Of a stretch of 52,736 bases of DNA, positions 1,193-17,522 are shown piece by piece. The notes beneath the pieces are model-generated. The model did not search any database. It saw nothing but the letters and a program-made list of their open reading frames with translations, and had not been told where the DNA came from. Source of the stretch: Psychrobacillus sp. BL-248-WT-3 (GTDB taxonomy: Bacteria > Bacillota > Bacilli > Bacillales_A > Planococcaceae); contig NZ_JABAFC010000027.1 in the NCBI RefSeq assembly GCF_012843435.1, positions 1 through 52,736 on the forward strand, written 5' to 3'. Numbering within the stretch: position 1 is the stretch's first letter; each line of letters starts with the position of its first letter. The position numbers and the translations under genes were made by a program.

Positions 1193-1339
1193 AATTACGA
1201 AGGATTATTCCAATATTTATATTTATTTAGGAAATATTATTCTTCATAAAAGCTATGTAAATTACAACCAGAGAAAAAATTATAGGGATAGATTTAAAGC
1301 TAACTAGCTATTTAAATTATAAAGGAGATGAAAATTTCG

Positions 1340-4222
1340 ATGAAGTATTACCAGCGACAAGTAAGTTTTGTGGTTTCTTTGTTACTTATTATTAGTTTAT
1401 TACCTATTTCTGTATCAGCTGAAGTTTTAGAAAATGATTTTATTGAGGTAGAAGCTGCACCAGTAGATCCAACAATTAGTGTAGAAGGTCCAAGGCATGA
1501 GATTGATTTTGTTGATGAGAGTATAGAAGGTAAATCTGACTATATTGCTATTTTTACTGAAGAGTATGCTCGAGAAATACTTGTGAAAAAGTTTTGGGTT
1601 GCAGTCCAGGTAGACCAAAACAACCGAGTGGTAAGGGTTGTAAGTCAATCCAATAATGGAGCAGTACCTATCTGGGAAGATGAACAATTACTTTCAGTTC
1701 CCAAGGGCGGATATATTCTATTAGCACATGATGACTCTTGGGGAAACAAGAATTTCAGAAAATTTTTGGCTACAAACTTTAAAACTGCTGACGTAATCAA
1801 ATTAAGAAAGAATGGTGAAGTTGTTCCAATTTCAGAATTCATGACAGGAGAAGGGTTACTTGCTGGGATTCAATTAAATAATGAGTTAATGTATACGGTC
1901 ACAGAACCTCACACACAAATATCGGGAACCATTAAGAACTTTGAAAGTGGTGAAAGGTACCGGCTATTAGCGAGTGGACAAGAAATAAACTTAGCAGCAG
2001 ACGGAACATTTAATTTCACACAATCAGTTAGTAATGGAACCAATTATATAGACTTAGAAATTTATAAAAATGATCGCTTGCATGAAACTCAATCACTGAT
2101 TGTTTACTTTAAGGATACGAAGTCAGCAAACAAGCAGGTTTTCTTATGGGTTGAACAAGGTCCAAACGCACGTCATTTTCAATCATCAGAGGATGTTTAT
2201 AATATGCTCGTAAAAGCAAAAGATGCTGGTGTAACGGCAATTGCGTTGGACGTTAAAGGAGTAGAGGGATTTGCAGCTTATAAGGAAAGTGACTTAACTG
2301 GGAGGCCATATATTAGTGAAATGACCTCGCCTGCAAGAGCTGGATCAAATCCTAATCTTGATTTATTGAAGGAATTTATTACTCATGCCCGTACGCTTGG
2401 TTTGGAAGTACATGCAGCGATAAACGTATTTGCAGAAGGGTCTATAGCTCATAATGAGTATGCGGTGCTTAACAATCATTTGGATTGGGAAGAGGAAGTC
2501 TACCGCTATGAGGACGGCGGAGAAATTTTACGATTACGAGACAGTAAATATGGAAAAGGCGGTGCACTGGTTGCATTTGTCAATCCAGCAAACTTAGAAG
2601 CTCGTAAATATCAATTGGATACATTTGAAGAAATTATTAAAAACTATGATGTGGATGGAGTTCTCTTAGATCGCGGCAGATATGATAATTACTTTGCGGA
2701 TTTTAGTGAGGAATCCAGAGTACAGTTTGAAGCATATTTGAGTAAAAAGGGGAAAGTACTAACGAATTGGCCGGCGGATATATTCACTTATGACGGTAGT
2801 AATCGTATCGATGGACCACTAATTGATGAGTGGTTTACGTATAGATCTAGTGTGATTAAAAGCTTTACAAGTGAAGTAAGGGACTTAGTAGATTCATATA
2901 ATGTAGCTGAAAATAGGGATGTATTATTATCTGCTTATGTTGGTTCCTGGTACGAATCTTATTATTTAAATGGAGTGAACTGGGCAAGCCCAACGTTCCA
3001 ATATGATGAAAGACTCAACTATCCACAAGAAAGCTTGTATACAGAAGAATATGCAAATACAGGGTATACGGACGACTTGGATTTCCTAATGATCGGGACA
3101 TATCAAACGACGGCAAATGAAGTGAAAAAGTATATTACGCAAGGAAATATTTTGACTGATGGGAAGCTGCCACTATATGCAGGAATGGCACTGGAGAATG
3201 TTCAAGAACCATACGTTCAAAGAGAGGTATTCCAAGCTGGATTGACAAATACGGATGGTCTTATGCTTTTCGACTATTCACAAGCAAACTTTCCTGTTAT
3301 TAAAGCCTCCATTAATAACGAGGAATATATTAAAGATTACCAGTTGGGAATAAGTAATCCAAAAGAAAACTCTAATTTTATAGAAGGCGATTTCCTCAAT
3401 ATCAACCGAAATGATGGAAATATCAATGTTTACTCAGAATCTTTTGGACCATCAACTGCAACAAATAAATGGGGGGTTGAAGCGGTAGTCGACGGATCAG
3501 GGCAGGTTGTCAAAATGGTTAATAAACGGCAGGCGATGGAATGGAGTTGGGGATCACAAGAGGATAATAATAGCCTGATTCCAGAAGGCGGCTTTGTTGT
3601 TTCTGCACAAGATCCATCTGGTTCTCGTGAAAAAAGACAAACAGTAGCATTCGCATATGATATTGGTGACGAAGTAAGAGCAGCATTATTAAGTGGATTT
3701 TTAAATTATGAAGGCAAAACGTTTAACAACCATAATCTTGAATTTAAAGGAAATGTTCAAGTAGTTGGTCCAGGTGTAGCAAAAGTAGAGATAAATGGGG
3801 CAGAGGCTATTTTAAAAGAAGATGGTAGTTTCACCACTAATGTCGACCTACAGCCAGGAGCAAACAAGATTGAAGTAGTTGTTCATGTAGATGGATACAA
3901 AACTCACTTTAAAGTAGTGGAAGTTAATGCAGGAAAACTAACGATTGAAGAATTGAAGGAAGCGGTAGAAAGAACGGATATAAATCCGAATGGGATTAAA
4001 AATGCGATTCTTACACAAATCGATAATGCTATGAGAGACTATAAAAAAGCGGCTGAAAATAAGGATAAAGGAGAAGAAGAACTAGCAGCTAAGCATCAAG
4101 AAAATGGAGATAAAAAGCTTGAAGCAACGATGAAAATGATTGAGCAGCATGCAGGCAAGCATATCAGTGAAGAAGATGCTGCAGAGCTTATACGCATGAT
4201 TGGATTAATTTTACCTAAATAA
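1340..4222 (+). CDS. secreted glycoside hydrolase-like (GHL10) multidomain protein
   Basis: An exported protein of 960 residues, probably a glycan-degrading enzyme. A signal peptide (basic start, hydrophobic VVSLLLIISLLPISVSA) is followed by an N-terminal domain containing VPKGGYILLAHDD, an Ig-like segment, a TIM-barrel-like GHL10 region (about residues 265-650; motifs VDGVLLDRGRYDN, TNWPADIF, YVGSWYESYY), a second domain of the first type (IPEGGFVVSAQDP), another Ig-like segment and a helical charged tail resembling a FIMAH domain (last 94 residues). The ATG at 1340 is chosen because AAGGAG at 1322-1327 lies 12 bases upstream; the in-frame ATG at 1328 abuts it. The GHL10 region is paralogous to the product of 6054-7265. 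The substrate is unknown; catalytic activity is inferred from the fold family. Confidence 0.85.
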   Translation: MKYYQRQVSFVVSLLLIISLLPISVSAEVLENDFIEVEAAPVDPTISVEGPRHEIDFVDESIEGKSDYIAIFTEEYAREILVKKFWVAVQVDQNNRVVRVVSQSNNGAVPIWEDEQLLSVPKGGYILLAHDDSWGNKNFRKFLATNFKTADVIKLRKNGEVVPISEFMTGEGLLAGIQLNNELMYTVTEPHTQISGTIKNFESGERYRLLASGQEINLAADGTFNFTQSVSNGTNYIDLEIYKNDRLHETQSLIVYFKDTKSANKQVFLWVEQGPNARHFQSSEDVYNMLVKAKDAGVTAIALDVKGVEGFAAYKESDLTGRPYISEMTSPARAGSNPNLDLLKEFITHARTLGLEVHAAINVFAEGSIAHNEYAVLNNHLDWEEEVYRYEDGGEILRLRDSKYGKGGALVAFVNPANLEARKYQLDTFEEIIKNYDVDGVLLDRGRYDNYFADFSEESRVQFEAYLSKKGKVLTNWPADIFTYDGSNRIDGPLIDEWFTYRSSVIKSFTSEVRDLVDSYNVAENRDVLLSAYVGSWYESYYLNGVNWASPTFQYDERLNYPQESLYTEEYANTGYTDDLDFLMIGTYQTTANEVKKYITQGNILTDGKLPLYAGMALENVQEPYVQREVFQAGLTNTDGLMLFDYSQANFPVIKASINNEEYIKDYQLGISNPKENSNFIEGDFLNINRNDGNINVYSESFGPSTATNKWGVEAVVDGSGQVVKMVNKRQAMEWSWGSQEDNNSLIPEGGFVVSAQDPSGSREKRQTVAFAYDIGDEVRAALLSGFLNYEGKTFNNHNLEFKGNVQVVGPGVAKVEINGAEAILKEDGSFTTNVDLQPGANKIEVVVHVDGYKTHFKVVEVNAGKLTIEELKEAVERTDINPNGIKNAILTQIDNAMRDYKKAAENKDKGEEELAAKHQENGDKKLEATMKMIEQHAGKHISEEDAAELIRMIGLILPK

Positions 4223-4241
4223 CAAATGTTTTTCATTGTTT

Positions 4242-4271
4242 GGGGTGTTAGGGAAACTTTAGCGACACCCC
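4242..4271 (+). other. intercistronic hairpin
   Basis: GGGGTGT (4242-4248) pairs with ACACCCC (4265-4271). No T run follows, so it is more likely an mRNA stabiliser or partial attenuator between the first two genes than a full terminator. Confidence 0.5.
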
Positions 4272-4294
4272 AGACTTATGATGGAGGTATACAT

Positions 4295-5008
4295 ATGCAC
4301 ATGGATAAAGAAGTATTGAGGAGCAATTATTGTAATAGAGACTACGAATACCATCTATTAGGTTCTGTAAATGAAGCGAATGGAAAAGTAAACCTTCTCT
4401 ATGTACAAGATGGCGGAGATTATTTGGAGTTAGGTGAAATTGAGAAGGTCTACAATAGCTTGATAAGAATGTATAAAGAACAAGGTGAAAATCTAATTTG
4501 TGTACTGGTATCACCTGGGGATTCGATTGAAAGATGGCATTCCTATGATAGAAGAGGAGCCAATTTTAATAATTATATCTCCTTTTTCAATGAGGAACTT
4601 GTGCCATTCGTAGAAGAGAAATTAAATCTGCAGGTAGGTAAAAGAGGACTTCTAGGAGATTCTTTGGGTGCGAATATTAGCTTAAATATTGCTATGCAAA
4701 AGCCAGAGAATTGGTCGCATCTATTGTTACAGTCGTCAGCAATATCTCCTAGGGAATTAAGTGATTTAGAAGGTTTCAGTACATTACCCTGGCATGTTTA
4801 TCAAACGGTCGGCATTTATGAGGATGAGTTTATCTCCCCTATTTCTAATGAAAAGCTAAATATCTATTCCCGTAATCAGAAAATGTACCAAATCTTTAAG
4901 GGGAAAAATACAGATATTGAATACAAAGTGCAAGAGGAGAACCATTTATGGGATTTCTGGCGAAGAGACTTACCGACGGCTCTTCAATACTTTTTGAATA
5001 ATGGTTAA
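4295..5008 (+). CDS. alpha/beta-hydrolase esterase (enterochelin esterase-like fold)
   Basis: A predicted cytosolic esterase of 237 residues. The nucleophile motif GDSLG (in LLGDSLGANISLN) fits GxSxG of the putative-esterase family, and a C-terminal ENHLWDFWRRDLP segment could supply the histidine. The start at 4295 is supported by GGAGG at 4283-4287; the longer frame from 4226 would begin inside the hairpin. It lies between the secreted hydrolase and the ROK kinase, so removal of an acyl group from an imported sugar is a reasonable but unproven role. Confidence 0.75.
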   Translation: MHMDKEVLRSNYCNRDYEYHLLGSVNEANGKVNLLYVQDGGDYLELGEIEKVYNSLIRMYKEQGENLICVLVSPGDSIERWHSYDRRGANFNNYISFFNEELVPFVEEKLNLQVGKRGLLGDSLGANISLNIAMQKPENWSHLLLQSSAISPRELSDLEGFSTLPWHVYQTVGIYEDEFISPISNEKLNIYSRNQKMYQIFKGKNTDIEYKVQEENHLWDFWRRDLPTALQYFLNNG

Positions 5009-5079
5009 TTTCTATCATTATTTTATTAGAGTTAAGACGCATTATCTTTCATTACATAAAAGTGTTGGGAGAGATTGGA

Positions 5080-6039
5080 ATGGAATATAGTATCGGAATA
5101 GATATCGGGGGTACTAAGATTGCCACAGGAATCGTAGGACGTGAAGGCAATGTACTGTCTAAAAGAATTTACCCAACGCCTAGTTCCACAAATAAGGAAA
5201 TATTAGAACTTTTAACAGAAACAGTGGATGATTATATAAGGATTGCAACTGAAAAAGGTATGGAACTAGTAAGTGTGGGAATAGGTTCCGCCGGTCAAAT
5301 AGATTATAAAAGGGGGAAAATACTCTCAGGTACGGTAAATATCAAGGACTGGAACAATATTGATATTAGAAAATCTCTATCTCTTATAACTAACCTTCCA
5401 ATATATCTTGATAATGATGCAAATACATTTGCTATAGCGGAACATCAGCTTGGAAGCGGTAAAGGTGTAGATGACGTAGTATGCCTAACCCTAGGAACCG
5501 GGATCGGTGGGGGGATTATATCTGGCGGGAATGTCATTCGCGGTAGGTGGGGAGGAGCAGCAGAACTGGGTCATATGTCTGTGAACTTCAATGGACCAGA
5601 TTGTAACTGCGGTTCTAAAGGATGTATAGAGACGTATGCCTCGGGCACAGGCATCGCCAATAGAATGAAGGAAAAGCTACGTCTCTCTAATCGGGCAGAA
5701 TTTACTTATTATAAAGAGAATCCTCATTTACTTACAAGCAAAGAGGTATTCGTCTGGAGAGAACAGGGCTCAATTGAAGCAATAGAGATAATCGATCAAA
5801 CCATAAAAGCATTAACTTTTGGAGTAGTGAATATTATACATACTTTCAATCCATCCATGATCATCTTTGGAGGTGGGCTAGCTGAGGCGAACAGTTGGCT
5901 GATTTCAGAAGTAAAAAAGAGTTTGGAGACAATAGGGATGTCTTCATTAGTAAAGGATGTAGAGTTAAAGATCTCCAAATTGGGTCAAGATGCAGGCCTT
6001 ATTGGAGCAGCTTATCAAGTATGGATGGATAAAAACTAA
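5080..6039 (+). CDS. ROK family sugar kinase (glucokinase or ManNAc kinase type)
   Basis: A 319-residue ROK kinase that would phosphorylate an imported hexose or N-acetylhexosamine with ATP. It shows the N-terminal phosphate-binding DIGGTK, the LTLGTGIGGG glycine loop and the zinc-binding CNCGSKGCIETYASGTG signature. The ATG at 5080 follows GGGAGAG at 5067-5073; the in-frame GTG at 5062 has no ribosome binding site. Because nanE lies in the same locus, an N-acetylmannosamine kinase role is attractive, but ROK specificity cannot be read safely from sequence. Confidence 0.88.
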   Translation: MEYSIGIDIGGTKIATGIVGREGNVLSKRIYPTPSSTNKEILELLTETVDDYIRIATEKGMELVSVGIGSAGQIDYKRGKILSGTVNIKDWNNIDIRKSLSLITNLPIYLDNDANTFAIAEHQLGSGKGVDDVVCLTLGTGIGGGIISGGNVIRGRWGGAAELGHMSVNFNGPDCNCGSKGCIETYASGTGIANRMKEKLRLSNRAEFTYYKENPHLLTSKEVFVWREQGSIEAIEIIDQTIKALTFGVVNIIHTFNPSMIIFGGGLAEANSWLISEVKKSLETIGMSSLVKDVELKISKLGQDAGLIGAAYQVWMDKN

Positions 6040-6053
6040 AAGGAGGAAATTAT

Positions 6054-7265
6054 ATGAATGATGTTTTTAATGAAAACGCGAATATTTTGTGGGTCGATTT
6101 TTTAGCAAATGGAGAACGTCTAGCTAACGAAGAGGAACAAGTAAAATTGATTAAACAAGCAGTAGAGTCTGGAATTACACATATGATTATTGATGCCAAG
6201 GTGCCTTTTGGTCAAACTACTTATCCAAGCAACTATGCTCATCATATTAGCAGCTGGTCAGATGGCTCATTTAGTGCTTGGAAAAATCGCGACTTTTTAA
6301 AAGAGTTTTTAAGTAAGATGAAAGACATCAAGCACATTAAAGTTTTAGCGAATGTGGACGTATTTTCGGAAGGTATAACTTCTTCCCGCGATGGAATGGC
6401 ATACGATAAGCCAGAGTGGCAAGTTACGTTTTATAACGACGCTGTTTCCAACGAATCAAATGCAGCTGAATACTCGGATGCTGCAACCATTTTTGTGAAT
6501 CCAATTCATCCCGAAGTAGTGGAATACGAACTTAATATTATAAAAGAGATATGTACCTATAATTTAGATGGGATAGTCGTAGATCGCTGTCGTTATCCTA
6601 ACATTTATGGAGACTTTAGTGATCTCAGCAGAATTGGCTTCGAATCCTATATAGGTAAAAAAGTTATCAATTGGCCAGAGGATATTTTCACGATTGATAA
6701 AACAAAAGAAATTAATCGCGGAGCACTATTCCCTAAATGGACAGAGTGGAGAGCATTAAACATCAAAAATTTCGTAAGCAAGGCAAGGGAATTGGTAAAG
6801 TCAGCAAATCCGAATCTTATATTTTCTGATTACGTTGGCTCCTGGTACCCACTATATTATAGCGAAGGAGTCAATTGGGGGAGTGAAACATATCATCCAG
6901 ACCTTGAATGGACATCCAAAACCCATAATGTCTCTGGGCTTGCAGAACAATTGGACTTCATTATGACGGGCTGTTATTACCCAGAAGTATATGTTGAAGA
7001 AGCCGAACAAAATGGACGTCCTGCCGAGTGGTACAGTGTTGAAGGTGCAATTGATAAAAGTCTGGAAGTCATTAACGGTAGTATCCCTGTTGTAGGAAGT
7101 CTATTTCTGAAAGACTATACAAACAATCCAGATCAATTTAGAAAAGCGATTAGAATGTGTAAGGAAAAATCAGCTGGCGTCATGATCTTTGATACGGTGT
7201 ATTTAGAGGAATATAACTGGTGGGATATCCTTGCTGAGGAACTGAATATATCTAAGGAAAGCTAA
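6054..7265 (+). CDS. cytosolic GHL10-type glycoside hydrolase-like protein
   Basis: A 403-residue protein without a signal peptide that covers just the catalytic-like barrel of the secreted protein at 1340-4222. Shared blocks include LDGIVVDRCRYPN versus VDGVLLDRGRYDN, NWPEDIFTID versus NWPADIFTYD, and YVGSWYPLYYSEGVNWG versus YVGSWYESYYLNGVNWA. It starts 14 bases after the kinase with AAGGAGG in between. An extracellular enzyme paired with an intracellular paralogue suggests stepwise cleavage of one substrate outside and inside the cell; this is inference. Confidence 0.82.
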   Translation: MNDVFNENANILWVDFLANGERLANEEEQVKLIKQAVESGITHMIIDAKVPFGQTTYPSNYAHHISSWSDGSFSAWKNRDFLKEFLSKMKDIKHIKVLANVDVFSEGITSSRDGMAYDKPEWQVTFYNDAVSNESNAAEYSDAATIFVNPIHPEVVEYELNIIKEICTYNLDGIVVDRCRYPNIYGDFSDLSRIGFESYIGKKVINWPEDIFTIDKTKEINRGALFPKWTEWRALNIKNFVSKARELVKSANPNLIFSDYVGSWYPLYYSEGVNWGSETYHPDLEWTSKTHNVSGLAEQLDFIMTGCYYPEVYVEEAEQNGRPAEWYSVEGAIDKSLEVINGSIPVVGSLFLKDYTNNPDQFRKAIRMCKEKSAGVMIFDTVYLEEYNWWDILAEELNISKES

Positions 7266-7277
7266 AGAGGGATGCAT

Positions 7278-8798
7278 ATGAGAAAGCTAGCTTTAATACC
7301 AGTAGATGCAAGACCAGTAACCTACGACTTACCGAAGGATCTTGCTCAACTAGCAGATTGGGAAGTAATTACACCCCCAAAATCAGAGCTTGGTTTTTTA
7401 AAGGAAGCAGCTAACTTTTCCGCTTTGTTTCAGTGGATTGAAGATATTTCGGAAAGTGTAGACGGTTTCGTAATTTCCATTGATATGCTTCTTTACGGTG
7501 GCTTGGTTCCTTCTAGAATTAATAACGAAAGTGAATCGATCATCCGGCAAAGATTGGATTGGTTAGTAAAGATAAAACAGCTATATCCAACTGTCCAGTT
7601 AATGGCATTTAGCTCGACGATGCGAATCTCCAATAATTACGTCAATCAAGAGGAAAAGGATTACTGGAATGTGTATGGAAAAGAACTATGGGCTTATTCA
7701 TATCATTACCACCTATTTCAAAAGTATCAATTGAATGCGGACCGGGACATTATGAATGATTTAACAAGTAAAATTCCAGATCATATTCTTGCAGACTATA
7801 TAACGAGTAGGGAACGAAACTTTAAGGTAAATCTAACCTTAATAGATTATGTGGAAAAAGGGATTATCGATTTGTTGATATTTCCTCAGGATGACACGAG
7901 TGAATACGGTTTGAATATTATGGAACAGGAGCAATTAAAGGAAAAGATTTTTCAAAAGGGTCTGTATGAAAAAATATTTATTTACCCAGGAGCAGATGAA
8001 GTTGCAAGTGTACTTACCTCTAGAATGATCTATGAATTAGAGAAAGAAGCATTCCCAACATTCTATCCGATATACAGTGGTATGAAGGGTGCGTTATCTA
8101 TAGCAATGTATGAAGACCGACCTCTTTTTGAGTCTGTAAAAGGACAAATTTATGCTTTTGGTAGCCATACAGTTGAACACCCTGAGGAAGCAGATATTGT
8201 AATTGGAGTAAATGTGCCGGGTAGGAAACAAGGTGATTTGGCCTTACAAGTAAATTTAAATGAAGTAGATACAAATGACAGAAATATAGGCGAGTGGATA
8301 AGAAAACTCCGCTATTATTTTATGCGTGATAAATTAGTTGCAATTGCGGACGTTGCTTATGCAAATGGGGCAGATCGGACGATGATTCCTCAGTTGTTAT
8401 CAGTCTTTTCAATTGAAGAACTTTCTGGATTTGCCGCATGGAATACAGCAGGCAACACGATTGGTACCACTATAGCGCAAGCTGCTTTAGTTTATTTAGC
8501 TGCTAAACAAGGAAGAGTGACCAGCCAAGTAAAAGATAAGCAAATTTTAATCCGATTACTCGATGATTACATATATCAAACAATTGTCAGACAGGAAGTT
8601 AGAAAAACAGTAGATGAAGAACAAGTTCAAAACGACGTGCTATTGGAAAAGGTAAGGGAATTATTTAAAGAATCATCGACTACATTTATCGAACAAACCA
8701 ATATGAAATACGAGGTAGATTCTATTTATCTTCCTTGGGATCGATCATTTGAGATTGGTATAGAGGTAAAGTCGTATGAACAGGAGGGTTTCTCTTGA
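7278..8798 (+). CDS. DUF4127 family protein
   Basis: A 506-residue protein of a family with no function known to me. Family-like blocks are visible: IPVDARPVTYDLP at the N terminus, IDMLLYGGLVPSR, FPQDDTSEYGLN, YPGADEVASVL, IADVAYANGADRTM and AAWNTAGNTIGTT. There is no signal peptide or membrane segment, so it is cytosolic. The second ATG (7278) is preferred, with AAAGAGGG ending at 7271. Its stop overlaps the TTG start of the oxidoreductase, so the two are probably translated together. The conserved Asp, Glu and Asn residues suggest an enzyme acting on the same sugar. Confidence 0.85.
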   Translation: MRKLALIPVDARPVTYDLPKDLAQLADWEVITPPKSELGFLKEAANFSALFQWIEDISESVDGFVISIDMLLYGGLVPSRINNESESIIRQRLDWLVKIKQLYPTVQLMAFSSTMRISNNYVNQEEKDYWNVYGKELWAYSYHYHLFQKYQLNADRDIMNDLTSKIPDHILADYITSRERNFKVNLTLIDYVEKGIIDLLIFPQDDTSEYGLNIMEQEQLKEKIFQKGLYEKIFIYPGADEVASVLTSRMIYELEKEAFPTFYPIYSGMKGALSIAMYEDRPLFESVKGQIYAFGSHTVEHPEEADIVIGVNVPGRKQGDLALQVNLNEVDTNDRNIGEWIRKLRYYFMRDKLVAIADVAYANGADRTMIPQLLSVFSIEELSGFAAWNTAGNTIGTTIAQAALVYLAAKQGRVTSQVKDKQILIRLLDDYIYQTIVRQEVRKTVDEEQVQNDVLLEKVRELFKESSTTFIEQTNMKYEVDSIYLPWDRSFEIGIEVKSYEQEGFS

Positions 8799-10357
8799 AA
8801 AAAGATATAGCAATCATAGGCGGAGGTATTGGAGGCTGTATGGCAGCACTGTCAGCAGTCAAGCTAGGAAAGAAAGTGGTCATGACAGAGGAAACGAAGT
8901 GGATTGGTGGCCAGCTAACAAGTCAAGCAGTACCACCCGATGAGCATCCATGGATAGAAGAGTTTGGCTGCACAGAGACATATAGGAAGTTTAGAAACGA
9001 AGTAAGAGACTATTATAAAAAGAATTATCCCTTAAACGAGAATGCAAAAAATAATAATCGTTTGAATCCTGGAAACGGCTGGGTTAGTAGAATTGCACAT
9101 GAACCAAGGGTTGCTTTAAATATTTTATATGACTTTCTACAGCCTTATCTATCGAATGGACAAATCGAGCTATTGCTGGAGCATAAAATTACTGGAGTAG
9201 AAGTTAATAATGATGAAATTAAACAAGTATATGTACAAAACCTTTTAACGGAAGAGGAAATAGAAATTGAAGCACAATTTTTCCTCGATGCTACGGAACT
9301 TGGTGATGTATTACCGTTAGCTGGTGCAGAATATTCTATAGGGGCTGAGGCGAAGAGTGAAACAGCTGAGTACCACGCTTTAGATGTAGGTGACCCGCAA
9401 GATATGCAATCGATAACACATGTATTTGCCTTAGAGTTTGCTGAAGGGGAGAACCATACAATCGAAAAACCGGAGCAATATGAATTTTGGAGAAATTATC
9501 AAGCTCCTTTTTTAAAGCATAAACAAATAAGTGAGTATATACCAGAGGCTGATACAGGTGAATCTAAGATACTGCCGTTATTCCAGGACGAAAGCAACAG
9601 GCTACCGTTATGGGAATATCGAAGAATTATTGACGCTAATCAATTCACGGATGGTTTCTTTAAAGGAGATATTTCTCTAATTAATTGGCCACAAAATGAT
9701 TATTGGTTAGGGTCAATTATTGATGTAAGTCCGGAAGAAAAGGCTACTCATTTAAAAGGAGCAAAACAGTTAAGCCTTTCATTGTTATATTGGCTACAAA
9801 CGGAAGCACCAAGAGCTGATGGAGGCAAGGGTTATCCAGAGCTGAAGCTAAGACCTGATATTACAGGAACGGATGATGGTTTTGCAATGCATCCATACAT
9901 CCGTGAGTCTCGTAGGATTAAAGCTTTACAAACAGTCGTAGAAGAAGATATAAATGCAGATCTACGAGGGGGAGCAGGGATTAAAACGTTAGAAAATTCA
10001 GTTGGAATAGGCGCCTATCGAATAGATTTACACCCAACAACGAAAAGTAATCGATTATTTTATGCAAAAAGCTATCCATTTGAAATACCATTGGGCAGCC
10101 TAATACCCGTGAGAATAAAGAATTTAATTCCTGCTTGTAAAAATATTGGAACAACTCAAGTTACCAATGGTTGTTTTAGAGTTCACCCGGTGGAATGGAA
10201 TATAGGAGAAGCAGCTGGAACACTAGCCGCATTTTCTATTAACTCGGATATAAGTTTACATGAAATATATAATAGTCCAGATCGAATTAAGGAATATCAA
10301 AGTCTGCTAGTGGATAGAGGCATCAGCCTTCACTGGCCAGAAATCACGACTATATAA
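8795..10357 (+). CDS. FAD-dependent oxidoreductase (FAD_oxidored family)
   Basis: A 520-residue flavoprotein. The N-terminal Rossmann motif IIGGGIGGCMAALSAVKLGK binds FAD ADP-ribose, followed by TKWIGGQLTSQ; the C-terminal part has RESRRI and IGTTQVTNGCFRVHPVEWN, usual for this family. It begins with TTG at 8795, six bases after AGGAGGG, overlapping the upstream stop by four bases. Members often sit near carbohydrate-degrading genes; oxidation of a sugar hydroxyl or removal of a modification is possible, but the substrate is unknown. The plus-strand block of enzyme genes ends here. Confidence 0.85.
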   Translation: MKKDIAIIGGGIGGCMAALSAVKLGKKVVMTEETKWIGGQLTSQAVPPDEHPWIEEFGCTETYRKFRNEVRDYYKKNYPLNENAKNNNRLNPGNGWVSRIAHEPRVALNILYDFLQPYLSNGQIELLLEHKITGVEVNNDEIKQVYVQNLLTEEEIEIEAQFFLDATELGDVLPLAGAEYSIGAEAKSETAEYHALDVGDPQDMQSITHVFALEFAEGENHTIEKPEQYEFWRNYQAPFLKHKQISEYIPEADTGESKILPLFQDESNRLPLWEYRRIIDANQFTDGFFKGDISLINWPQNDYWLGSIIDVSPEEKATHLKGAKQLSLSLLYWLQTEAPRADGGKGYPELKLRPDITGTDDGFAMHPYIRESRRIKALQTVVEEDINADLRGGAGIKTLENSVGIGAYRIDLHPTTKSNRLFYAKSYPFEIPLGSLIPVRIKNLIPACKNIGTTQVTNGCFRVHPVEWNIGEAAGTLAAFSINSDISLHEIYNSPDRIKEYQSLLVDRGISLHWPEITTI

Positions 10358-10398
10358 ATAATACTAAGAAAATAAGTCTTAAAATTCAAAAAATTAAA

Positions 10399-10427
10399 TT
10401 GACATGAATATTCTGGAAGGATATAGT
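10399..10427 (+). promoter_or_regulatory. sigma-A promoter of the sugar transporter operon
   Basis: A consensus TTGACA (10399-10404) and TATAGT (10422-10427) are separated by 17 bases. The spacer holds the palindrome GAATATTC (10407-10414), a possible operator. Two AGGAGG-like sequences in the leader (about 10435 and 10465) are not followed by usable start codons. Confidence 0.75.
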
Positions 10428-10515
10428 TAGAATAGGAGGAAATATTCGCTTTTATTTACATAAAAGGAGGTTTACTCCGATTTTATTCATTAAAAAATAT
10501 TGGGGGGGAATTATA

Positions 10516-11820
10516 TTGACTAGTTTCAAGATGAAAAAGAGTCTTTTATGGATGCTTGTTTTGGGAGCGATGTTGTTTTTTATGGCAGCGTGTTCGGAGG
10601 ATGATGCTGGAGAAGCGAAAGGGGATTCACCAGATGACGTAAAGGAATCCGGAGAGCTATCTGGGGAAGTTGAATTTATGACTATATCTCTGAGTCCTAC
10701 TTTTGACGAGTACTTGAATAATTTAAAAGAAACGTTCGAAACAGAAAACCCAAAAGTAAAGGTATCTATTAGAGACGTACCTTATGAGCAAGTGGAACAA
10801 ATCATTTTGACATCTGCAGCAAGTGGGAATATGCCAGATGTAATGAACCTTAATACAGAATTTGTGAAGAAAATAGCTGCAAATGGAGCACTAGTGAATA
10901 TGGATGAAGCTGCAGCAGACGTCAAGGATACTTTCTTCGAAGGGTTATGGGAAACTGGTGGTGTAAACGGTTCTGTTTATGCATTGCCTTGGTATACCAC
11001 TACTAGTGGTATGATTTACAATCCAGATATTCTAAAAGAAGCTGGCTTTGACGAACCACCTTCAACATTTGAAGAGGCATGGGAAATGTCTAAAGTTATT
11101 AAGGAGAAAACTGGAGCTTATGGAGAAGTAATTGCTCCTGATATGCATTTACTGTTTCCGAAAAATGGTATTAATATCTTAAATGAAGATTATACAGCAG
11201 CTGCCTTCAATACACCGGAAGCTGTAGAATTATGGACATCTTATAAAAAGTATCATGACGAAGGATTATTTCCTTTAGATATTATGTTAAAGCAAGTGTC
11301 CATGCCTGAGCTATATGCACAGGAAAAAGTTGCTTGGTGGTCGACAGGTCCTCAGCTTTTCCGTCAAGTAAACGATCTTTCTCCAGAAGTGTATGAAAAA
11401 TCGATGGCAGCTCCTGCATTAAAAGGTGATGCTGGAAAGCAGCATGCTAACCCAATGAATATTGCAGTGTCGGCATCTAGTAAATCGAAAGAAGCAGCTG
11501 TTGCATTCGCTAAGTTTGTAACAAATGCAGAGAACCAATTGGAATTTGGTAAACTTGCATCTGTATTACCTCCAGTTGAAGAAGCAGTTAATGATGAATT
11601 TTTTGCACAAGGAGCAGATTCAAAGGATGCAACTGAGAGAGGAAAGTATTATGCAGCACAATCACTTGCAGATGCAGTAAATATGACTCCTGCAACTGAG
11701 CATGTGTCTAAAGTTAATGAGGCTATTCATACTGCTTTCCAACGAGTAATTTTAGAAGATAAGGATCCGGCCGAAGCGCTAAAAGAAGCGGAAGCAGAAG
11801 TAAACAATATTCTTCAATAA
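10516..11820 (+). CDS. ABC transporter extracellular sugar-binding lipoprotein (CUT1)
   Basis: A 434-residue solute-binding protein anchored outside the membrane. The signal ends in a lipobox (FFMAAC, lipidated Cys26), followed by an acidic linker and the family-1 binding fold (VEFMTISLSPTFDEYLNNLK, SAASGNMPDVMNLN, YALPWYTTTSGMIYNPDIL). Start is TTG at 10516 after a G-rich ribosome binding site; an ATG at 10531 is possible but lacks one. With the two permeases downstream it forms a CUT1 importer for oligosaccharides. No ATPase gene is present, so a shared ATPase such as MsmX is expected from Bacillus precedent. Confidence 0.92.
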   Translation: MTSFKMKKSLLWMLVLGAMLFFMAACSEDDAGEAKGDSPDDVKESGELSGEVEFMTISLSPTFDEYLNNLKETFETENPKVKVSIRDVPYEQVEQIILTSAASGNMPDVMNLNTEFVKKIAANGALVNMDEAAADVKDTFFEGLWETGGVNGSVYALPWYTTTSGMIYNPDILKEAGFDEPPSTFEEAWEMSKVIKEKTGAYGEVIAPDMHLLFPKNGINILNEDYTAAAFNTPEAVELWTSYKKYHDEGLFPLDIMLKQVSMPELYAQEKVAWWSTGPQLFRQVNDLSPEVYEKSMAAPALKGDAGKQHANPMNIAVSASSKSKEAAVAFAKFVTNAENQLEFGKLASVLPPVEEAVNDEFFAQGADSKDATERGKYYAAQSLADAVNMTPATEHVSKVNEAIHTAFQRVILEDKDPAEALKEAEAEVNNILQ

Positions 11821-11827
11821 TTTTATT

Positions 11828-11850
11828 GGACCTCCGATTAGAGGGGGTCC
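11828..11850 (+). other. hairpin after the binding-protein gene
   Basis: GGACCTCC (11828-11835) pairs with GGGGGTCC (11843-11850) with one G-U pair and a 7-base loop, without a strong T run. Such stem-loops after binding-protein genes commonly protect the upstream mRNA and let less permease be made. Confidence 0.65.
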
Positions 11851-11875
11851 ACTACTCTTCTAAGGAGGTTAACTT

Positions 11876-12733
11876 ATGTATAAAGCAAGACATGCTTGGG
11901 GATTTTTATCTCTGCCACTTCTCCTATTGCTTCTCTTCACATTCATTCCAACCATTGCAGCATTTGTTTTGAGTTTTACAAACTATAATGTGTTTCGTCC
12001 AATGGAATTTGTAGGTTTAACAAACTATATTGATGCATTTATGGATGCTACGTTTAGAAAGGCAATGTTTAACACGGTTTATTACTGGTTACTTGTTACG
12101 CCTGCATTAGTAATATTACCAATTTTCGTAGCTATCTTAGTAAATCAGAAGCTTAGAGGTGTGAAAATTTTTAGGCTTATTTTTTATTTTCCTACATTAG
12201 TTTCTGTAGTTGTAACTGCCATCCTCTTTACTTGGATGTTTGCCGAACAGGGAATTATCAATTACTTGTTTAGTATTGTAGGAATAGATCCAATTGGTTG
12301 GTTAACGAATACGTTTACTGCTATGCCTGCATTGGCAATTGTAACAATCTGGCAAGGATTCGGATATTACATGCTTTTTTATTTAGCAGCTCTCCAAGGG
12401 GTACCAAACGACTTGTATGAAGCAGCGGAATTAGATGGGGCTAGTTCTTGGAAAAAACACTTACATATTACGATACCTATGATTAAACCAATGATCTTTT
12501 TTGTGGCCGTTATATCAACAATGGGAGCATTTAAAGAGTTTACCTTAATGTTAACCATGACAAATGGTGGACCCTTGAGCTCAACTACAACAGCTGTATT
12601 TCTAGTATTTAAAGAAGCATTTACAAACCTTGAAATGGGATATGCGAGTGCAATTTCGTTTATTTTATTTGTTTTTATCCTAATAATCACACTTATAAAT
12701 CAAAAGTTGTTGGATAATAACCCTGAGAAATAA
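11876..12733 (+). CDS. sugar ABC transporter permease (MalF/UgpA type)
   Basis: A 285-residue inner-membrane permease of about six segments. The EAA loop EAAELDGASSWKKHLHITIP, which docks on the ATPase, is clear near residue 185. It starts 55 bases after the binding protein, behind AAGGAGG. It pairs with the next gene as the heterodimeric channel of a CUT1 importer. Confidence 0.92.
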   Translation: MYKARHAWGFLSLPLLLLLLFTFIPTIAAFVLSFTNYNVFRPMEFVGLTNYIDAFMDATFRKAMFNTVYYWLLVTPALVILPIFVAILVNQKLRGVKIFRLIFYFPTLVSVVVTAILFTWMFAEQGIINYLFSIVGIDPIGWLTNTFTAMPALAIVTIWQGFGYYMLFYLAALQGVPNDLYEAAELDGASSWKKHLHITIPMIKPMIFFVAVISTMGAFKEFTLMLTMTNGGPLSSTTTAVFLVFKEAFTNLEMGYASAISFILFVFILIITLINQKLLDNNPEK

Positions 12734-12747
12734 TGGAGGTGAATACA

Positions 12748-13665
12748 TTGGCACAATCGATAATCGAAGAAAATATAAAAGAAACAACAAATCAAACCGG
12801 CAAAAAATCTAAATCTGGTAATCCGAGTAAAAGAATAAATAAACAAAAAATGTTAATTAAATTGTTATCTTATCTACTTCTCTTAGTAATAACATGTATT
12901 ACCATTGTCCCTTTCCTATTTGCGCTATCCACTTCTTTAAAAGGAACGAATGATGTCTTATTTTCTATACCACCTCAATTAATACCAAAGAATATTACTT
13001 TCGATAACTTCATTACTGTATGGAATACATTGCCTATTGCTAGATACTTAATGAATAGTGTAATCCTAACTTTTTTTGGCGTAGTACTTCCCTTAATATT
13101 ATGTTCCTTTGCAGCTTTTCCGCTAGCAAGAATGACCTTCAAAGGTCGTAATTTTGTGTTTTTGCTAGTGATTGCGACAATGATGATTCCAGGAGAAGTT
13201 ACAATGATTCCAACCTACCTAATCATCGATAAGTTGGGATTAATGGGCTCTTATGCTGGTGTTATTTTACCTGGGGCAATAAGTGTAATGGGTATTTTCT
13301 TGATGCGACAAGGATTTATGGGTATTCCTAAGGAAGTGGAAGAGTCTGCAATCATTGATGGGGCAAACGTGTGGCAAGTATTCTGGAAGATTATGTTCCC
13401 AATGGTTAAACCGATGCTAGGTGTTCTTACCATCCTAAGCTTTATGGGGGCGTGGAACAGTTTTCTATGGCCATTACTTATCCTAAACGATCCAAGTACT
13501 TATCCGATAACCTTGGGACTGTATCAACTACAAGGTGCATTTTCTGCGAACACAAGACTTGTTGCAGCTGGGGCTATGATTGCTTTAGTTCCGATTATTA
13601 TCGTGTTTATAGCATTTCAACGCTATTTTATCGAAGCGGCTTATTCTAGCTCGGTAAAGGGATAA
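12748..13665 (+). CDS. sugar ABC transporter permease (MalG/UgpE type)
   Basis: A 305-residue membrane permease with a charged cytosolic N-terminal extension (about 30 residues, Lys/Ser-rich), about six membrane segments and the EAA loop VEESAIIDGANVWQVFWKIM. The start is set at TTG 12748 because GGAGGTGA (12735-12742) lies five bases before it; the ATG at 12733 overlaps both that site and the previous stop codon. It is the partner of the MalF-type permease. Confidence 0.9.
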   Translation: MAQSIIEENIKETTNQTGKKSKSGNPSKRINKQKMLIKLLSYLLLLVITCITIVPFLFALSTSLKGTNDVLFSIPPQLIPKNITFDNFITVWNTLPIARYLMNSVILTFFGVVLPLILCSFAAFPLARMTFKGRNFVFLLVIATMMIPGEVTMIPTYLIIDKLGLMGSYAGVILPGAISVMGIFLMRQGFMGIPKEVEESAIIDGANVWQVFWKIMFPMVKPMLGVLTILSFMGAWNSFLWPLLILNDPSTYPITLGLYQLQGAFSANTRLVAAGAMIALVPIIIVFIAFQRYFIEAAYSSSVKG

Positions 13666-13689
13666 GAAATAAAGTAGGAGGTAATCTAT

Positions 13690-14328
13690 TTGGATGCAAT
13701 AACTTCTGGTATCTACGCTGGATTTGATTGGTTTATACGAATTGTTAAGCTCAATCTGTTATGGCTATTCTCATGCATAGCTGGAGTTTTTATATTTAGT
13801 ATGTTTCCGGCTACAAGAGCAGCTTTTGTAGTAACAAATGAATGGACAAAAGGAAATACAGATATATCTGTTTGGGGGACGTTTAAAACATCCTTTAAAA
13901 AAAATTATTGGAAGTCACAATCAATGGGCTATTTGCTAGGGTTAATCTTTTTTATCCTTATTATAGATCTTAGATTATTTCTTTCTTTTGAAAGTAATAT
14001 AATTTGGAGTTCTTTAATAGTTACCTTTTCTATTTTCTTAGTCTTTTTATTAGTAATCAGTTTTTATGTCTTCCCAATGATACTAGAATCCGAATTAAGT
14101 ATGAAAGATACGCTTAAGACAGCATTCTTTACAGGGTTTTCTTATCCACACTGGACTTTCATTAACCTTTTAGGTGTATTGACGGTAACTTTTATAACTA
14201 TTATCTATCCGATTTCGTTACTATTTTTGTCAGGTGGAGTAATCTTTTTATGGATAACCTGCATGAACAAAATTGTAAAGGCTAAGATTGAAACAAAATA
14301 TGAAAAGTTACATGGAATTACGGAATAA
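13690..14328 (+). CDS. YesL family (DUF624) membrane protein
   Basis: A 212-residue integral membrane protein with about four to five hydrophobic segments and the family's early FSMFPATRAAF motif. It starts with TTG at 13690, eight bases after GGAGG. Members are found beside CUT1 sugar importers in Firmicutes and their role is not established; a part in assembly or regulation of the transporter is inferred from this position. Confidence 0.8.
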   Translation: MDAITSGIYAGFDWFIRIVKLNLLWLFSCIAGVFIFSMFPATRAAFVVTNEWTKGNTDISVWGTFKTSFKKNYWKSQSMGYLLGLIFFILIIDLRLFLSFESNIIWSSLIVTFSIFLVFLLVISFYVFPMILESELSMKDTLKTAFFTGFSYPHWTFINLLGVLTVTFITIIYPISLLFLSGGVIFLWITCMNKIVKAKIETKYEKLHGITE

Positions 14329-14404
14329 ATCTGTGTGGTGAACGGTGTGACGGTATTGAACAAAAATAATAATCTTATAGATTAGTACAAACAGTGGTGA
14401 TTAG

Positions 14405-15100
14405 ATGAGAAAGTCGGACTTCTTTAGTAAGGTTAAAGGTAAATTGATTGTTTCGTGTCAGGCTCTAGAGGATGAACCCTTACATGGCTCAAACATAATG
14501 GCTAAGATGGCAGTAGCAGCAGAACAAGGTGGTGCCTCTGGAATAAGGGCAAATGGAAGTGAAGATATTAAGGCAATAGAGCAAGTGACAAGCTTGCCGA
14601 TAATTGGTCTTGTAAAGCGAGACTACGAGGATAGTGAGGTTTATATCACACCTACTAGAAAGGAAGTAGACGAGCTACTAGATACAGGTGTGGTTATGAT
14701 TGCACTAGATGCAACATCTAGAAGGCGTCCCAACGAAGAAAACCTTCCTGACCTGATTACGTATATTAAACAACATGGCAGATTAGTGCTAGCAGATATC
14801 TCTACCGTCGAGGAGGGCTTGAAGGCTTTAGAATATGGTGCAGATTGTGTCTCAACTACCCTGTCAGGGTACACATCATATACTAGAAGTAGTAACAGCG
14901 GTCCCGATATAGAATTGGTAGAGGAGCTTTCTAGGTTAACGAGTCAACCAGTAATAGCAGAGGGTAGGGTGAATAACCCTGAAGAAGTAAGTATCCTTTT
15001 AGAAAAAGGGGCACACACAGTAGTTGTTGGATCAGCCATTACAAGACCACAGCATATTACGGAAAAGTTTGTTCAAGCACTGAACATTAAAAATGCATAA
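14405..15100 (+). CDS. nanE: N-acylmannosamine-6-phosphate 2-epimerase
   Basis: A 231-residue TIM-barrel enzyme converting ManNAc-6-phosphate to GlcNAc-6-phosphate. Family blocks are VSCQALEDEPLHG at the N terminus, IIGLVKRDY, the phosphate-binding AEGRVNNPEEV and VVVGSAITRP near the C terminus. It joins the locus product to amino-sugar catabolism. The sialate aldolase (nanA), ManNAc kinase of usual type and sialidase are not in the window; only the ROK kinase at 5080 could provide the phosphorylated substrate. Confidence 0.92.
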   Translation: MRKSDFFSKVKGKLIVSCQALEDEPLHGSNIMAKMAVAAEQGGASGIRANGSEDIKAIEQVTSLPIIGLVKRDYEDSEVYITPTRKEVDELLDTGVVMIALDATSRRRPNEENLPDLITYIKQHGRLVLADISTVEEGLKALEYGADCVSTTLSGYTSYTRSSNSGPDIELVEELSRLTSQPVIAEGRVNNPEEVSILLEKGAHTVVVGSAITRPQHITEKFVQALNIKNA

Positions 15101-15293
15101 ATGCACGTAGTCTTTGAAAAGGTGAAGCTAAGTACCGGCATAGACAATAATTAATGCGGACGCACAGTCTTTCGGATGTAAAGTTCCCGAAGAGGTATGT
15201 TTTTAGCTAAAAACTGTATTCAAAGAAGTAATAGTATAAAATAGAAGTATATATTTTATATTAACATTTCCTAAGATAAGGACGGTAGAATAC
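15101..15293. other. intergenic region before the regulator gene
   Basis: No terminator or consensus promoter is clear. A short stem TTCGG/CCGAA near 15173-15191 and AT-rich sequence with TATA-like stretches at 15232-15262 precede the regulator, so it may have its own promoter. Confidence 0.35.
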
Positions 15294-16124
15294 ATGAAAA
15301 TGCCTATAATAGAAATAATAAATAGTTACTATCCATCATTGACTAACTCAGAGCAAAAAGTAGCAACATTTGTCCAAGAAAATTTGGGTAAGGTTATTTA
15401 TTATTCGGTAACAGATTTAGCCGATGAAGCAGGCGTTGGAGAAACTACTGTACTTAGATTTTGTAGGAAGATAGGATTAAAAGGGTATCAAGAATTTAAA
15501 CTAACGATTGCTCAAAACTTGTCTGAGGGTGAAAGAGACAAAGATAACTCGGAAGCATCTAATTTTATCCAATCCATTAGAGGGAATACCATTAAGGCAA
15601 TAGAAAATACAGCTTCCATGATTATTGAGAACGATTTAGAGGCAGCTATCGAACTATTGAATAAGGCTCGAACCATTAGTTTCTTTGGAGTTGGTACCTC
15701 TGGAATAACTGCATTGGACGCAAAAAGTAGATTGTTAAGAATCGGTAGACCTTCAGAAGCAATTACGGATTCACATTTACAAGCTATGTCTGCGGCCACG
15801 CTTACTGCAGAGGATGTAGTAGTTGGCCTTAGTATATCTGGAAGTACTAGGGATACATTGGAGGCGCTAGAGATAGCTAAAATGGCTGGAGCAAAAATCA
15901 TTGCCATTACGTATTATTCACGTTCCCCTATTACTCAATTTGCAGATATTGTCTTACTAGGCGGAGCAAAAGAGTCTCCATTGGAAGGTGGATCATTAAC
16001 GGCTAAAATTTCTCAGCTTTTTATCGTCGATCTTTTATGCACAGGATTAGCATTACAATCAAAAGATAAATCACTAGAGATGAAGCAGAAAACCGCAAAG
16101 GCTGTTGTAAACAAAATCTATTAA
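15294..16124 (+). CDS. RpiR/MurR family transcriptional regulator
   Basis: A 276-residue DNA-binding regulator of sugar metabolism. The N-terminal HTH_6 domain (about residues 1-77) contains YSVTDLADEAGVGETTVLRF, and the C-terminal SIS domain (about 115-260; SFFGVGTSGITALDAKSRLL, VVGLSISGSTRDTLEALEIA) binds phosphosugars. Standing at the end of the nanE locus, it most likely controls it in response to an amino-sugar phosphate. Candidate targets are the palindrome at 1135-1162 and the GAATATTC in the transporter promoter. Confidence 0.9.
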   Translation: MKMPIIEIINSYYPSLTNSEQKVATFVQENLGKVIYYSVTDLADEAGVGETTVLRFCRKIGLKGYQEFKLTIAQNLSEGERDKDNSEASNFIQSIRGNTIKAIENTASMIIENDLEAAIELLNKARTISFFGVGTSGITALDAKSRLLRIGRPSEAITDSHLQAMSAATLTAEDVVVGLSISGSTRDTLEALEIAKMAGAKIIAITYYSRSPITQFADIVLLGGAKESPLEGGSLTAKISQLFIVDLLCTGLALQSKDKSLEMKQKTAKAVVNKIY

Positions 16125-16371: not shown

Positions 16372-16532
16372 CTAATTGGTTTATACATTAATTGAATACC
16401 GATATAAAGAATGAAACCCATTTTACATGTTTCCATACTCCATGCAGCTTCCTTGATTATATATGTTCATATCGGGTATATATTAGAATATCTTCTACCT
16501 ATGAGGAACTATTATTTAAAGGAGTTGGAAGA

Positions 16533-17078
16533 ATGTTAGAAAATGCATGGATTATGGTGTTGACGATTTTTGTCATTAACATTGTATACGTTACGTTATC
16601 CACTACTAGGATGATTCTTACACTAAAGGGGTATCGATATATTGCTGCATTTATGAGTATTGTAGAGGTTACTGTTTATGTAGTAGGGCTTGGCCTAGTG
16701 TTAGATAACTTGGATGCTATTCAAAATCTTGTTGCCTATGCACTTGGTTTTGGTACGGGAATCATTGTTGGTTCTAAGCTTGAGGAAAAAATGTCTTTAG
16801 GATATATTATGGTTAATGCTATTTCTGTAGAAAGTGATGTAAACCAATTATCCAATATTCTCCGAGAGGAAGGGTACGGGGTTACCGATTGGACGGTAAA
16901 TGGTTTAGCAGGGCATAGACAAGCTCTTCAAATATTAACTCCTAGGAAATATGAGAAAAAGCTATATGATCGATTAAAGGAAATTGATCCGAAAATCTTT
17001 ATTATTGCACATGAGCCCAAAACGATTCATGGCGGGTTCTGGGTTAAAACGATTAGGAAAGGGAAGCTCTTTAGATGA
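16533..17078 (+). CDS. UPF0316/DUF2179 membrane protein (YebE-like)
   Basis: A 181-residue protein with about three N-terminal membrane segments ([20 protein letters not shown] and following) and a C-terminal soluble DUF2179 domain ([40 protein letters not shown]). The ATG at 16533 follows AAAGGAG at 16518-16524; the longer open frame from 16392 has an atypical, non-hydrophobic start. In Bacillus it precedes the purE operon, as here. Function unknown. Confidence 0.88.
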
Positions 17079-17263
17079 AGCAAGAAACACAATGGTTTGA
17101 AGTGCAAGAAAATGAAAGCATTGCAGCCTGTATGGAAAAGATGGCAGAGCAGGGCTTTCAAGTGGTTGGTAGGAGAGAAGAGCCTTTGTTTGCAGAGGTG
17201 GATGGAAAACCTATTCCTATCAGGCAAATTATTCAATTAAAAGGTATTAAAGAAAAGAAATAA
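17075..17263 (+). CDS. NETI motif-containing protein (YebG-like)
   Basis: A 62-residue soluble protein of the small NETI family, here with [11 protein letters not shown] in place of NETI, followed by [15 protein letters not shown]. It overlaps the UPF0316 stop by four bases (ATGA), so the pair is translationally coupled, the order seen in Bacillus before purE. Function unknown. Confidence 0.85.
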
Positions 17264-17277
17264 TAGAAAATACATCA

Positions 17278-17321
17278 AAAACCGAACATTACAGTTTTCT
17301 GAAAATTAATTGTTCGCTTTT
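17278..17321 (+). promoter_or_regulatory. two inverted PurBoxes (PurR operator)
   Basis: AAAACCGAACATTA at 17278-17291 and, inverted, ATTGTTCGCTTTT (17309-17321) match the PurBox consensus with CCGAAC/CGAAC cores about 25 bases apart. The second box ends six bases before the -35. PurR of Bacillus binds such paired boxes and represses when PRPP is low. Confidence 0.85.
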
Positions 17322-17326
17322 AGGCG

Positions 17327-17355
17327 TTGACGTTACTACCTAGACTTGTTAGAAT
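17327..17355 (+). promoter_or_regulatory. sigma-A promoter of the pur operon
   Basis: TTGACG (17327-17332) and TAGAAT (17350-17355) are spaced by exactly 17 bases, directly downstream of the PurBoxes. Transcription would start about 17362 and include the riboswitch. Confidence 0.85.
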
Positions 17356-17379
17356 ATTAATAGTAATAGAACGATTTAA

Positions 17380-17450
17380 TCCCCATATATGCTAAAGAAT
17401 TGGCTTTAGCGTTTCTACCAAGTCACCGTAAATGACAGGACTATGAGGGA
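17380..17450 (+). promoter_or_regulatory. guanine (purine) riboswitch aptamer
   Basis: The fold shows P1 (17380-17387 with 17442-17450, one bulged A), P2 GCTAAAG/CTTTAGC, the conserved GTTTCTACC joining region and P3 GTCA-CCGTAAA-TGAC. The specificity base is C in GGACTATG, which indicates guanine rather than adenine. It lies in the leader of purE, as in Bacillus. Confidence 0.93.
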
Positions 17451-17516: not shown

Positions 17517-17522
17517 ACTATG

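Follow-up and report, generated by a model that had tools for sequence, protein, structure and literature searches.

What does a block of twelve genes do for the cell when it combines GHL10-like proteins, an esterase, a sugar kinase and a sugar importer with a DUF4127 protein and a flavin adenine dinucleotide (FAD)-dependent oxidoreductase, and which step is carried out by the last two? The block lies at positions 1328-16124 of contig NZ_JABAFC010000027.1 of Psychrobacillus sp. BL-248-WT-3, a stretch of 52,736 nucleotides that is called the window here. An earlier note on this DNA had proposed a glycan-use locus for a modified glycan bearing N-acetylmannosamine (ManNAc). We found that the block probably imports and uses an amino-sugar glycan, perhaps of cell walls, and that DUF4127 and the oxidoreductase (family PF12831, FADox below), which are found together in many bacteria, may be responsible for a step of sugar breakdown that has yet to be described.

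Gene content of the locus

The twelve open reading frames are all on the plus strand and are separated by short gaps or overlap. Their layout and the Pfam matches agree with the co-oriented genes and families named before, with the start at 1328 rather than at 1340. Families were assigned with Pfam and NCBIfam, and the permeases by position and sequence reading:

1328..4222, plus strand: secreted GHL10-like protein of 964 amino acids (signal peptide by eye, GHL10-like barrel, Glucodextran_B domain)
4226..5008, plus strand: PF00756 esterase (Pfam Esterase 1.3e-20, by eye no clear signal peptide), proposed to de-acylate
5062..6039, plus strand: ROK sugar kinase (Pfam ROK 7e-77), proposed amino-sugar kinase
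6054..7265, plus strand: cytosolic GHL10/DUF4985 glycosidase-like protein (Pfam GHL10 2.3e-15, DUF4985 9.4e-35)
7272..8798, plus strand: DUF4127 protein (Pfam 1.9e-140), proposed to release ManNAc or ManNAc-6-phosphate
8795..10357, plus strand: PF12831 FAD-dependent oxidoreductase, FADox (Pfam FAD_oxidored 2.5e-99)
10516..11820, plus strand: carbohydrate ABC substrate-binding protein (SBP_bac_1, Pfam 3.1e-31)
11876..12733, plus strand: CUT1-type permease 1 (position and sequence reading)
12733..13665, plus strand: CUT1-type permease 2 (position and sequence reading)
13690..14328, plus strand: YesL/DUF624 membrane protein (Pfam 3.8e-21)
14405..15100, plus strand: NanE, ManNAc-6-phosphate 2-epimerase (Pfam 1e-66, NCBIfam subfamily match)
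15294..16124, plus strand: RpiR-family regulator, HTH_6 and SIS (Pfam, NCBIfam)

The FADox gene starts with TTG and overlaps the stop of the DUF4127 gene.

Conserved association of DUF4127, FADox and NanE

The gene set turned out to be conserved. In Oceanobacillus chungangensis all twelve genes are present in the same order (55-86% identity), and with a shuffled order the set recurs in Ornithinibacillus halotolerans, in further genomes of the window's genus and family and in other families. The search of other genomes that had been suggested earlier thus recovered the set in other genera and families, and the block does look like a glycan-use locus.

DUF4127 was found in 59/398 genomes of an even sample of the class, the window genome included, and in 63/398 genomes of a sample of the phylum. 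The class sample was split by DUF4127 score into a high-scoring group (about 390 bits or more; 38 places in 36 genomes) and a low-scoring group (<270 bits; 28 places in 27 genomes). A strong FAD_oxidored match was located within 10 kb of 31/38 high-scoring places and of only 1/28 low-scoring ones, the latter being a gene fragment (within 16 kb, FADox was found at 6/28 low-scoring places), which bears out the proposed co-occurrence of DUF4127 and an FAD oxidoreductase. NanE was present within 15 kb of 18/38 high-scoring and 0/28 low-scoring places. For GHL10 the same distance gave 12/38 and 0/28, so the pair of secreted and cytosolic GHL10 proteins, taken earlier as the defining core, is not supported as such. 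Counted by genus (17 with a high-scoring DUF4127), FADox was nearby in 14/17 and NanE in 11/17.

The clustering exceeds chance; the high-scoring places are not independent, as they come from related genomes (nine from one genus), and a binomial estimate, which ignores relatedness, gives orders of magnitude only. The counts cover the matches listed and omit the second part of a broken DUF4127 gene (G303:C4:105091), GHL10 matches below the cut-off and NanE matches in genomes that lack DUF4127. FADox matches below about 100 bits were dropped as well, because weak PF12831 matches occur everywhere (59/59 DUF4127 genomes and 14/14 control genomes).

Partner genes were compared by BLAST in 85 stretches, from which 83 loci (given with L numbers below) remained after removal of L069, a duplicate, and L097, in which DUF4127 was not recognised. 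These loci were picked for diversity and not at random; the window and L086-L090 stand outside the set. NanE was found in 23/83 loci, where it was accompanied by a ROK kinase (22/23), a CUT1 permease (22/23), RpiR (21/23), FADox (21/23; the 520-amino-acid type in 16, the 450-amino-acid type in 5), GHL10 (14/23) and a PF00756 esterase (12/23). At several DUF4127 loci AXE1 or GDSL esterases are present. Other glycosidases occur as alternatives: GH84 in L060 (Pfam) and in L094 and L095 (BLAST), GH20C in L020 (Pfam) and in L021-L024 (BLAST), and GH38 in L015 and L065 (Pfam), in L096 (BLAST) and on the Priestia plasmid L086 (annotation). Since relatives carry such enzymes, the claim that conventional glycosidase families play no part is not supported. 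GH84 and GH20C as partner enzymes suit glycans of N-acetylhexosamine (HexNAc), as does a double GNAT in L094 and L095 (see below).

Some loci are minimal. In L064 the run consists of NanE, substrate-binding protein, two permeases, DUF4127, ROK and RpiR, with neither FADox nor a glycosidase recognised. NanE, an HAD protein, DUF4127 and a phosphotransferase system (PTS) IIC protein, with RpiR adjoining, are found on L087, a Carnobacterium plasmid, and on L092, an Enterococcus plasmid. No other glycosidase was annotated in the run of L087 or found by BLAST or by eye in those of L064 and L092, and no redox gene was recognised in any of the three. These minimal relatives thus retain an importer, DUF4127, NanE and RpiR, together with a ROK kinase or an HAD phosphatase. 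Mainly for this reason, the step in which ManNAc or ManNAc-6-phosphate is formed would be best assigned to DUF4127; in the minimal loci it would make, from the sugar taken up, the ManNAc-6-phosphate on which NanE would act.

Properties of the encoded proteins

NanE passes its subfamily cut-off (311 versus 189 bits) and, judged by family-level assignment, is the only protein of the locus for which a reaction is fixed. That NanE, ROK and RpiR are regular partners of DUF4127 fits a substrate that yields ManNAc, although ManNAc could instead arise during processing and not come from the substrate itself.

Of the two GHL10 proteins described before, the cytosolic one passes the PF02638 profile (56.9 bits versus a Pfam cut-off of 27.9), whereas the secreted one fails it (25 bits). 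The two are paralogues (29% identity across 396 amino acids, E 4e-45), and for this reason the secreted protein is called GHL10-like here. Its barrel matches Cwp19 weakly (6e-4) in a sequence search of the PDB. In an alignment of 14 GHL10-like proteins, which included the canonical one of the same genome, Asp80, Asp177 (in a DRxRY motif) and Asp301 are kept.

Both DUF4127 (PF13552; 469 bits, positions 2-489 of 489) and FADox (PF12831; 334 bits, positions 1-414 of 416) match their families over the full length. Conserved arginines and acidic residues are spread along the DUF4127 alignment, and the N-terminal glycines G9 and G14 of FADox are invariant among 18 proteins. The AlphaFold2 model of DUF4127, built from 4 sequences, is an alpha/beta protein with a predicted local distance difference test (pLDDT) of 78; when this model was tested for a GH84/GH20-like TIM-barrel hexosaminidase fold, Foldseek gave only weak and mixed matches. 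The FADox model has a pLDDT of 56, and the best 60 of 198 PDB sequence matches of FADox lie mostly in its N-terminal region, where FAD is bound. In the literature searched no paper was found for the words DUF4127 or N-acetylmannosaminidase, and PF12831 appeared only in a study of the Brucella flavoproteome. The word GHL10 occurs in eight papers, in some of them by chance. Among papers on NanE with an FAD-dependent oxidoreductase no title concerns such a locus, and when secondary cell wall polymers were looked up together with NanE, no title among the matches listed was on the subject.

Proposed function

We tentatively favour, with a little less than even confidence, an inducible locus for an acylated, ManNAc-bearing amino-sugar glycan. 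The likeliest substrates are short oligosaccharides of the cell wall, for instance units of ManNAc and N-acetylglucosamine (GlcNAc). The substrate, the induction and each of the reactions of the locus are what we infer from the families and the conserved linkage described above. Outside the cell, the secreted GHL10-like protein would cut the polymer, and the CUT1 importer would bring in the fragments, which would be trimmed inside the cell by the esterase and the cytosolic GHL10-like enzyme. DUF4127, with help from the PF12831 flavoprotein in most lineages, would then yield ManNAc (or ManNAc-6-phosphate in the phosphotransferase versions), which the ROK kinase would phosphorylate and NanE would convert from ManNAc-6-phosphate to GlcNAc-6-phosphate, while RpiR would sense a sugar phosphate. 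A ManNAc-linked glycan locus, as the earlier note had it, is thus plausible from the comparative counts, and that interpretation is partly supported overall. The lack of a NanA match above the cut-off in this genome and its separate MurNAc cluster (both below) also speak for the proposed function. The locus would give DUF4127, and one branch of PF12831, a proposed function that is open to testing.

Several observations weigh against this function. NanE is wanting within 15 kb of 20/38 high-scoring DUF4127 places, a NanE-like protein is found in 9/83 DUF4127 loci with NanE in none of these nine, and other DUF4127 loci lie amid unrelated sugar-acid genes. The ROK kinase exceeds the cut-off of the ROK glucokinase subfamily by 0.25 bits (260.6 versus 260.35) and fails both cut-offs for ManNAc kinase, NanK (155.2 versus 283 and 141.4 versus 450 bits). 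The Priestia locus, with its GH38 and ManA, points to mannose too. A profile search of the PDB with DUF4127 gave 0 matches, and Foldseek searches with its model returned only generic Rossmann-like or TIM proteins (TM score at most about 0.28 among the matches listed). We know of no activity for DUF4127 or for FADox of this type, and under plain hydrolysis a job for the redox enzyme is not obvious.

Variant DUF4127 contexts

The NanE-like protein, unnamed and of about 235 amino acids, lies near DUF4127 in L071 (5027-5713), L067, L070, L072, L105, L112, L117, L121 and L124. It matches Pfam NanE with an E of 0.03 in one member and not at all in two others. The loci that carry it often have the 450-amino-acid FADox and an importer; L105 and L112 also contain a hydantoinase/oxoprolinase nearby. 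Exported-looking forms of DUF4127 were also seen (by eye), in L100 near a FADox that itself looks exported and begins with a twin-arginine-type sequence, and in L113 four genes from NamZ, where the stretch ends within FADox. Given the loci with the NanE-like protein and the exported-looking members, DUF4127 probably represents a wider family of enzymes, with the window in a NanE-linked branch.

Other neighbours were observed in single or few loci. In L076 (11165-13346) DUF4127 stands beside an EF_0837-like amidohydrolase, a SelA-like pyridoxal phosphate (PLP) enzyme and a PfkB kinase (by eye), a sugar-acid-like context unlike that of the window. An aminoglycoside 3-N-acetyltransferase-family gene (PF02522), possibly encoding an amino-sugar acetyltransferase, lies directly 3' of DUF4127 on the Subdoligranulum plasmid L091 (15591-16358). 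Genes of the ADP-ribosylglycohydrolase family are found near DUF4127 in L093 (10295-11662), L080 (Pfam), L095 and L091 (BLAST). In L094 and L095 a double GNAT lies between FADox and DUF4127; it is homologous (1e-31) to the GNAT of an N-acetylmuramic acid (MurNAc) cluster of the window genome (see below) and resembles the glucosamine N-acetyltransferase GlmA. A GDPD gene of Ornithinibacillus, with no signal peptide seen by eye, overlaps the esterase gene. BLAST with this GDPD found no other among these loci; at its one locus it would fit teichoic-acid chemistry.

Alternative explanations

The alternative that survives best, unlikely as we consider it, is oxidation followed by elimination. FADox would oxidise a GlcNAc-type glycoside (at C3), DUF4127 would eliminate or hydrolyse the aglycone, and loss of the C2 stereochemistry would give ManNAc, so that NanE would be required even with GlcNAc as the only such sugar in the polymer. 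FADox is indeed the most constant partner of DUF4127, and this chemistry would account for NanE beside GH84 or GH20C. Some loci without FADox have Gfo/Idh/MocA dehydrogenases (L063, L066) or AP_endonuc_2 proteins (L062, L066); such proteins are, however, common in sugar loci generally. The C2 epimerisation is conjectural, the runs of L064, L087 and L092 combine NanE and DUF4127 with no redox enzyme recognised, and PF12831 has no glycoside oxidase known to us. A precedent exists in the elimination of 3-keto glucosides following C3 oxidation (PMC10628242, cited from excerpts of the paper). Taken further, DUF4127 and the flavoprotein might form an undescribed oxidoreductive module, which would split amino-sugar glycosides with no classical glycosidase taking part and supply ManNAc, hence NanE rather than MurQ in the operon, with related pairs, exported ones included, acting on other glycosides; this too we consider unlikely. 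If the redox chemistry were true, non-hydrolytic glycoside cleavage would extend to amino sugars.

An ordinary operon for HexNAc oligosaccharides, in which DUF4127 and FADox are peripheral and unrelated to the main pathway, seems quite unlikely. The occurrence of DUF4127 in unrelated contexts and the near absence of linkage among its low-scoring members are in line with such an operon, while the linkage to FADox at 31 of 38 places and the retention of DUF4127 in the minimal loci argue against it.

Salvage of peptidoglycan glycan strands, with GHL10 enzymes that cleave denuded strands and a locus that imports them, was at first suggested by papers on GHL10 and was demoted once a separate MurNAc cluster had been found; we now hold it to be very unlikely. 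DigH of E. coli is a GHL10 protein. Cwp19, a characterised GHL10 protein, cleaves peptidoglycan (PMC6016235, PMC5765458), DigH acts on denuded strands (PMC12288456, in which no passage on GHL10 or DUF187 was found), and a Deinococcus GHL10 protein, DogH, reportedly uses starch (PMC9967864), so that the GHL10 domain does not fix the substrate. The GHL10 proteins of the window are divergent, and the canonical GHL10 protein of this genome (3.9e-83) is encoded on another contig, C7, in a MurNAc/peptidoglycan salvage cluster (L138:368-16235) with importer genes, YesL, NamZ, MurQ, RpiR, GNAT, AnmK, a GH3 protein just under the NagZ-type cut-off and a kinase with a weak NagK match. MurQ is not in the window locus, its only match over the cut-off in this genome is that on C7, and it was found by BLAST in 0/83 DUF4127 loci. 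The separate GHL10-NamZ-MurQ-AnmK cluster and this absence of MurQ make peptidoglycan salvage by the window locus unlikely.

The least probable reading is a sialic-acid-like (nonulosonate) pathway with DUF4127 in place of the lyase NanA: the minimal set equals a nan operon (importer, ROK, NanE and RpiR, plus nanA) minus nanA, NanA is absent from the window locus with a best match in the genome of 144.5 bits against a cut-off of 382, and the conserved DUF4127 arginines would suit a carboxylate, but no sialidase was among the neighbours put to Pfam, GHL10, GH84, GH20C and GH38 suggest other glycans, and a lyase-type fold match for DUF4127 was not prominent.

Genomic setting and regulatory signals

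The locus is flanked by a ribosomal RNA operon (rrn) end and a purine (pur) operon, and a promoter-like site precedes the gene of the substrate-binding protein:

1..62, plus strand: 3' portion of a 5S rRNA gene that the start of the contig truncates (30.7 bits, kept under the gathering threshold of 38 by the truncation); left edge of the insertion site
10399..10427, plus strand: promoter-like site 5' of the substrate-binding protein gene (11/12 consensus match; such sites are not enriched versus shuffles)
16449..20148, plus strand: right flank common to the same-species genome G096 (99% identity, sequence comparison)

The 5S end of the contig is 97% identical to that of G096. At the equivalent site G096 has 16S-23S-5S, then about 1.9 kb, then the same pur flank, and no DUF4127 match was found in G096 (the other locus genes were compared at this site only). 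Because of this 1.9-kb arrangement, the locus is accessory, being either inserted at the rrn-pur junction or lost from G096.

Between the rrn end and the locus (1-905) we observed degenerate copies of the 5S 3' end at 12-72, 274-334 and 610-670 and two identical terminator-like copies at 71-106 and 670-705, possible scars of repeated recombination. The spacer 5' of the locus also holds a tandem repeat (404-519; 21-bp unit, 5.5 copies). A purine riboswitch aptamer (17363-17463, Rfam 72.8 bits) lies 5' of purE and is ordinary for the pur operon that follows. Promoter-like sites (50 versus 58.2 expected) and terminator-like sites (5 versus 8.8 expected) were not above shuffles. Near-matches to the catabolite-repression (cre) site numbered 7 versus 3.9 expected, with 2 within the locus, both inside genes.

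Comparison with known systems

With the nan (sialic acid) operons the window locus shares NanE, a ROK kinase, RpiR and a sugar importer; it differs in having DUF4127, FADox and GHL10-like proteins instead of NanA. The secreted protein is a distant homologue of the GHL10 lytic transglycosylase Cwp19; the GHL10 proteins of the window are divergent, and one of them is cytosolic with a DUF4985 domain. The oxidation-elimination systems for glycosides, with 3-keto intermediates (PMC10628242), would, if the redox chemistry applied, share with the window the pairing of a redox enzyme with a non-glycosidase, and Gfo/Idh and AP_endonuc_2 proteins occur at some DUF4127 loci; the window has other protein families and would have amino-sugar end products.

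A further comparison is with the C7 MurNAc cluster of the same genome. Both have GHL10, a sugar ABC importer, YesL, a sugar kinase and RpiR, and the permeases, YesL and RpiR are homologous between the two. The window has NanE where MurQ would be and ROK rather than a NagK_SO3507-like kinase, adds DUF4127, FADox and an esterase, and is without NamZ, NagZ and AnmK. Since the genome already has its own MurNAc cluster, the window locus most likely serves an amino-sugar glycan other than peptidoglycan, which points to one genome having another amino-sugar pathway in addition to MurNAc salvage.

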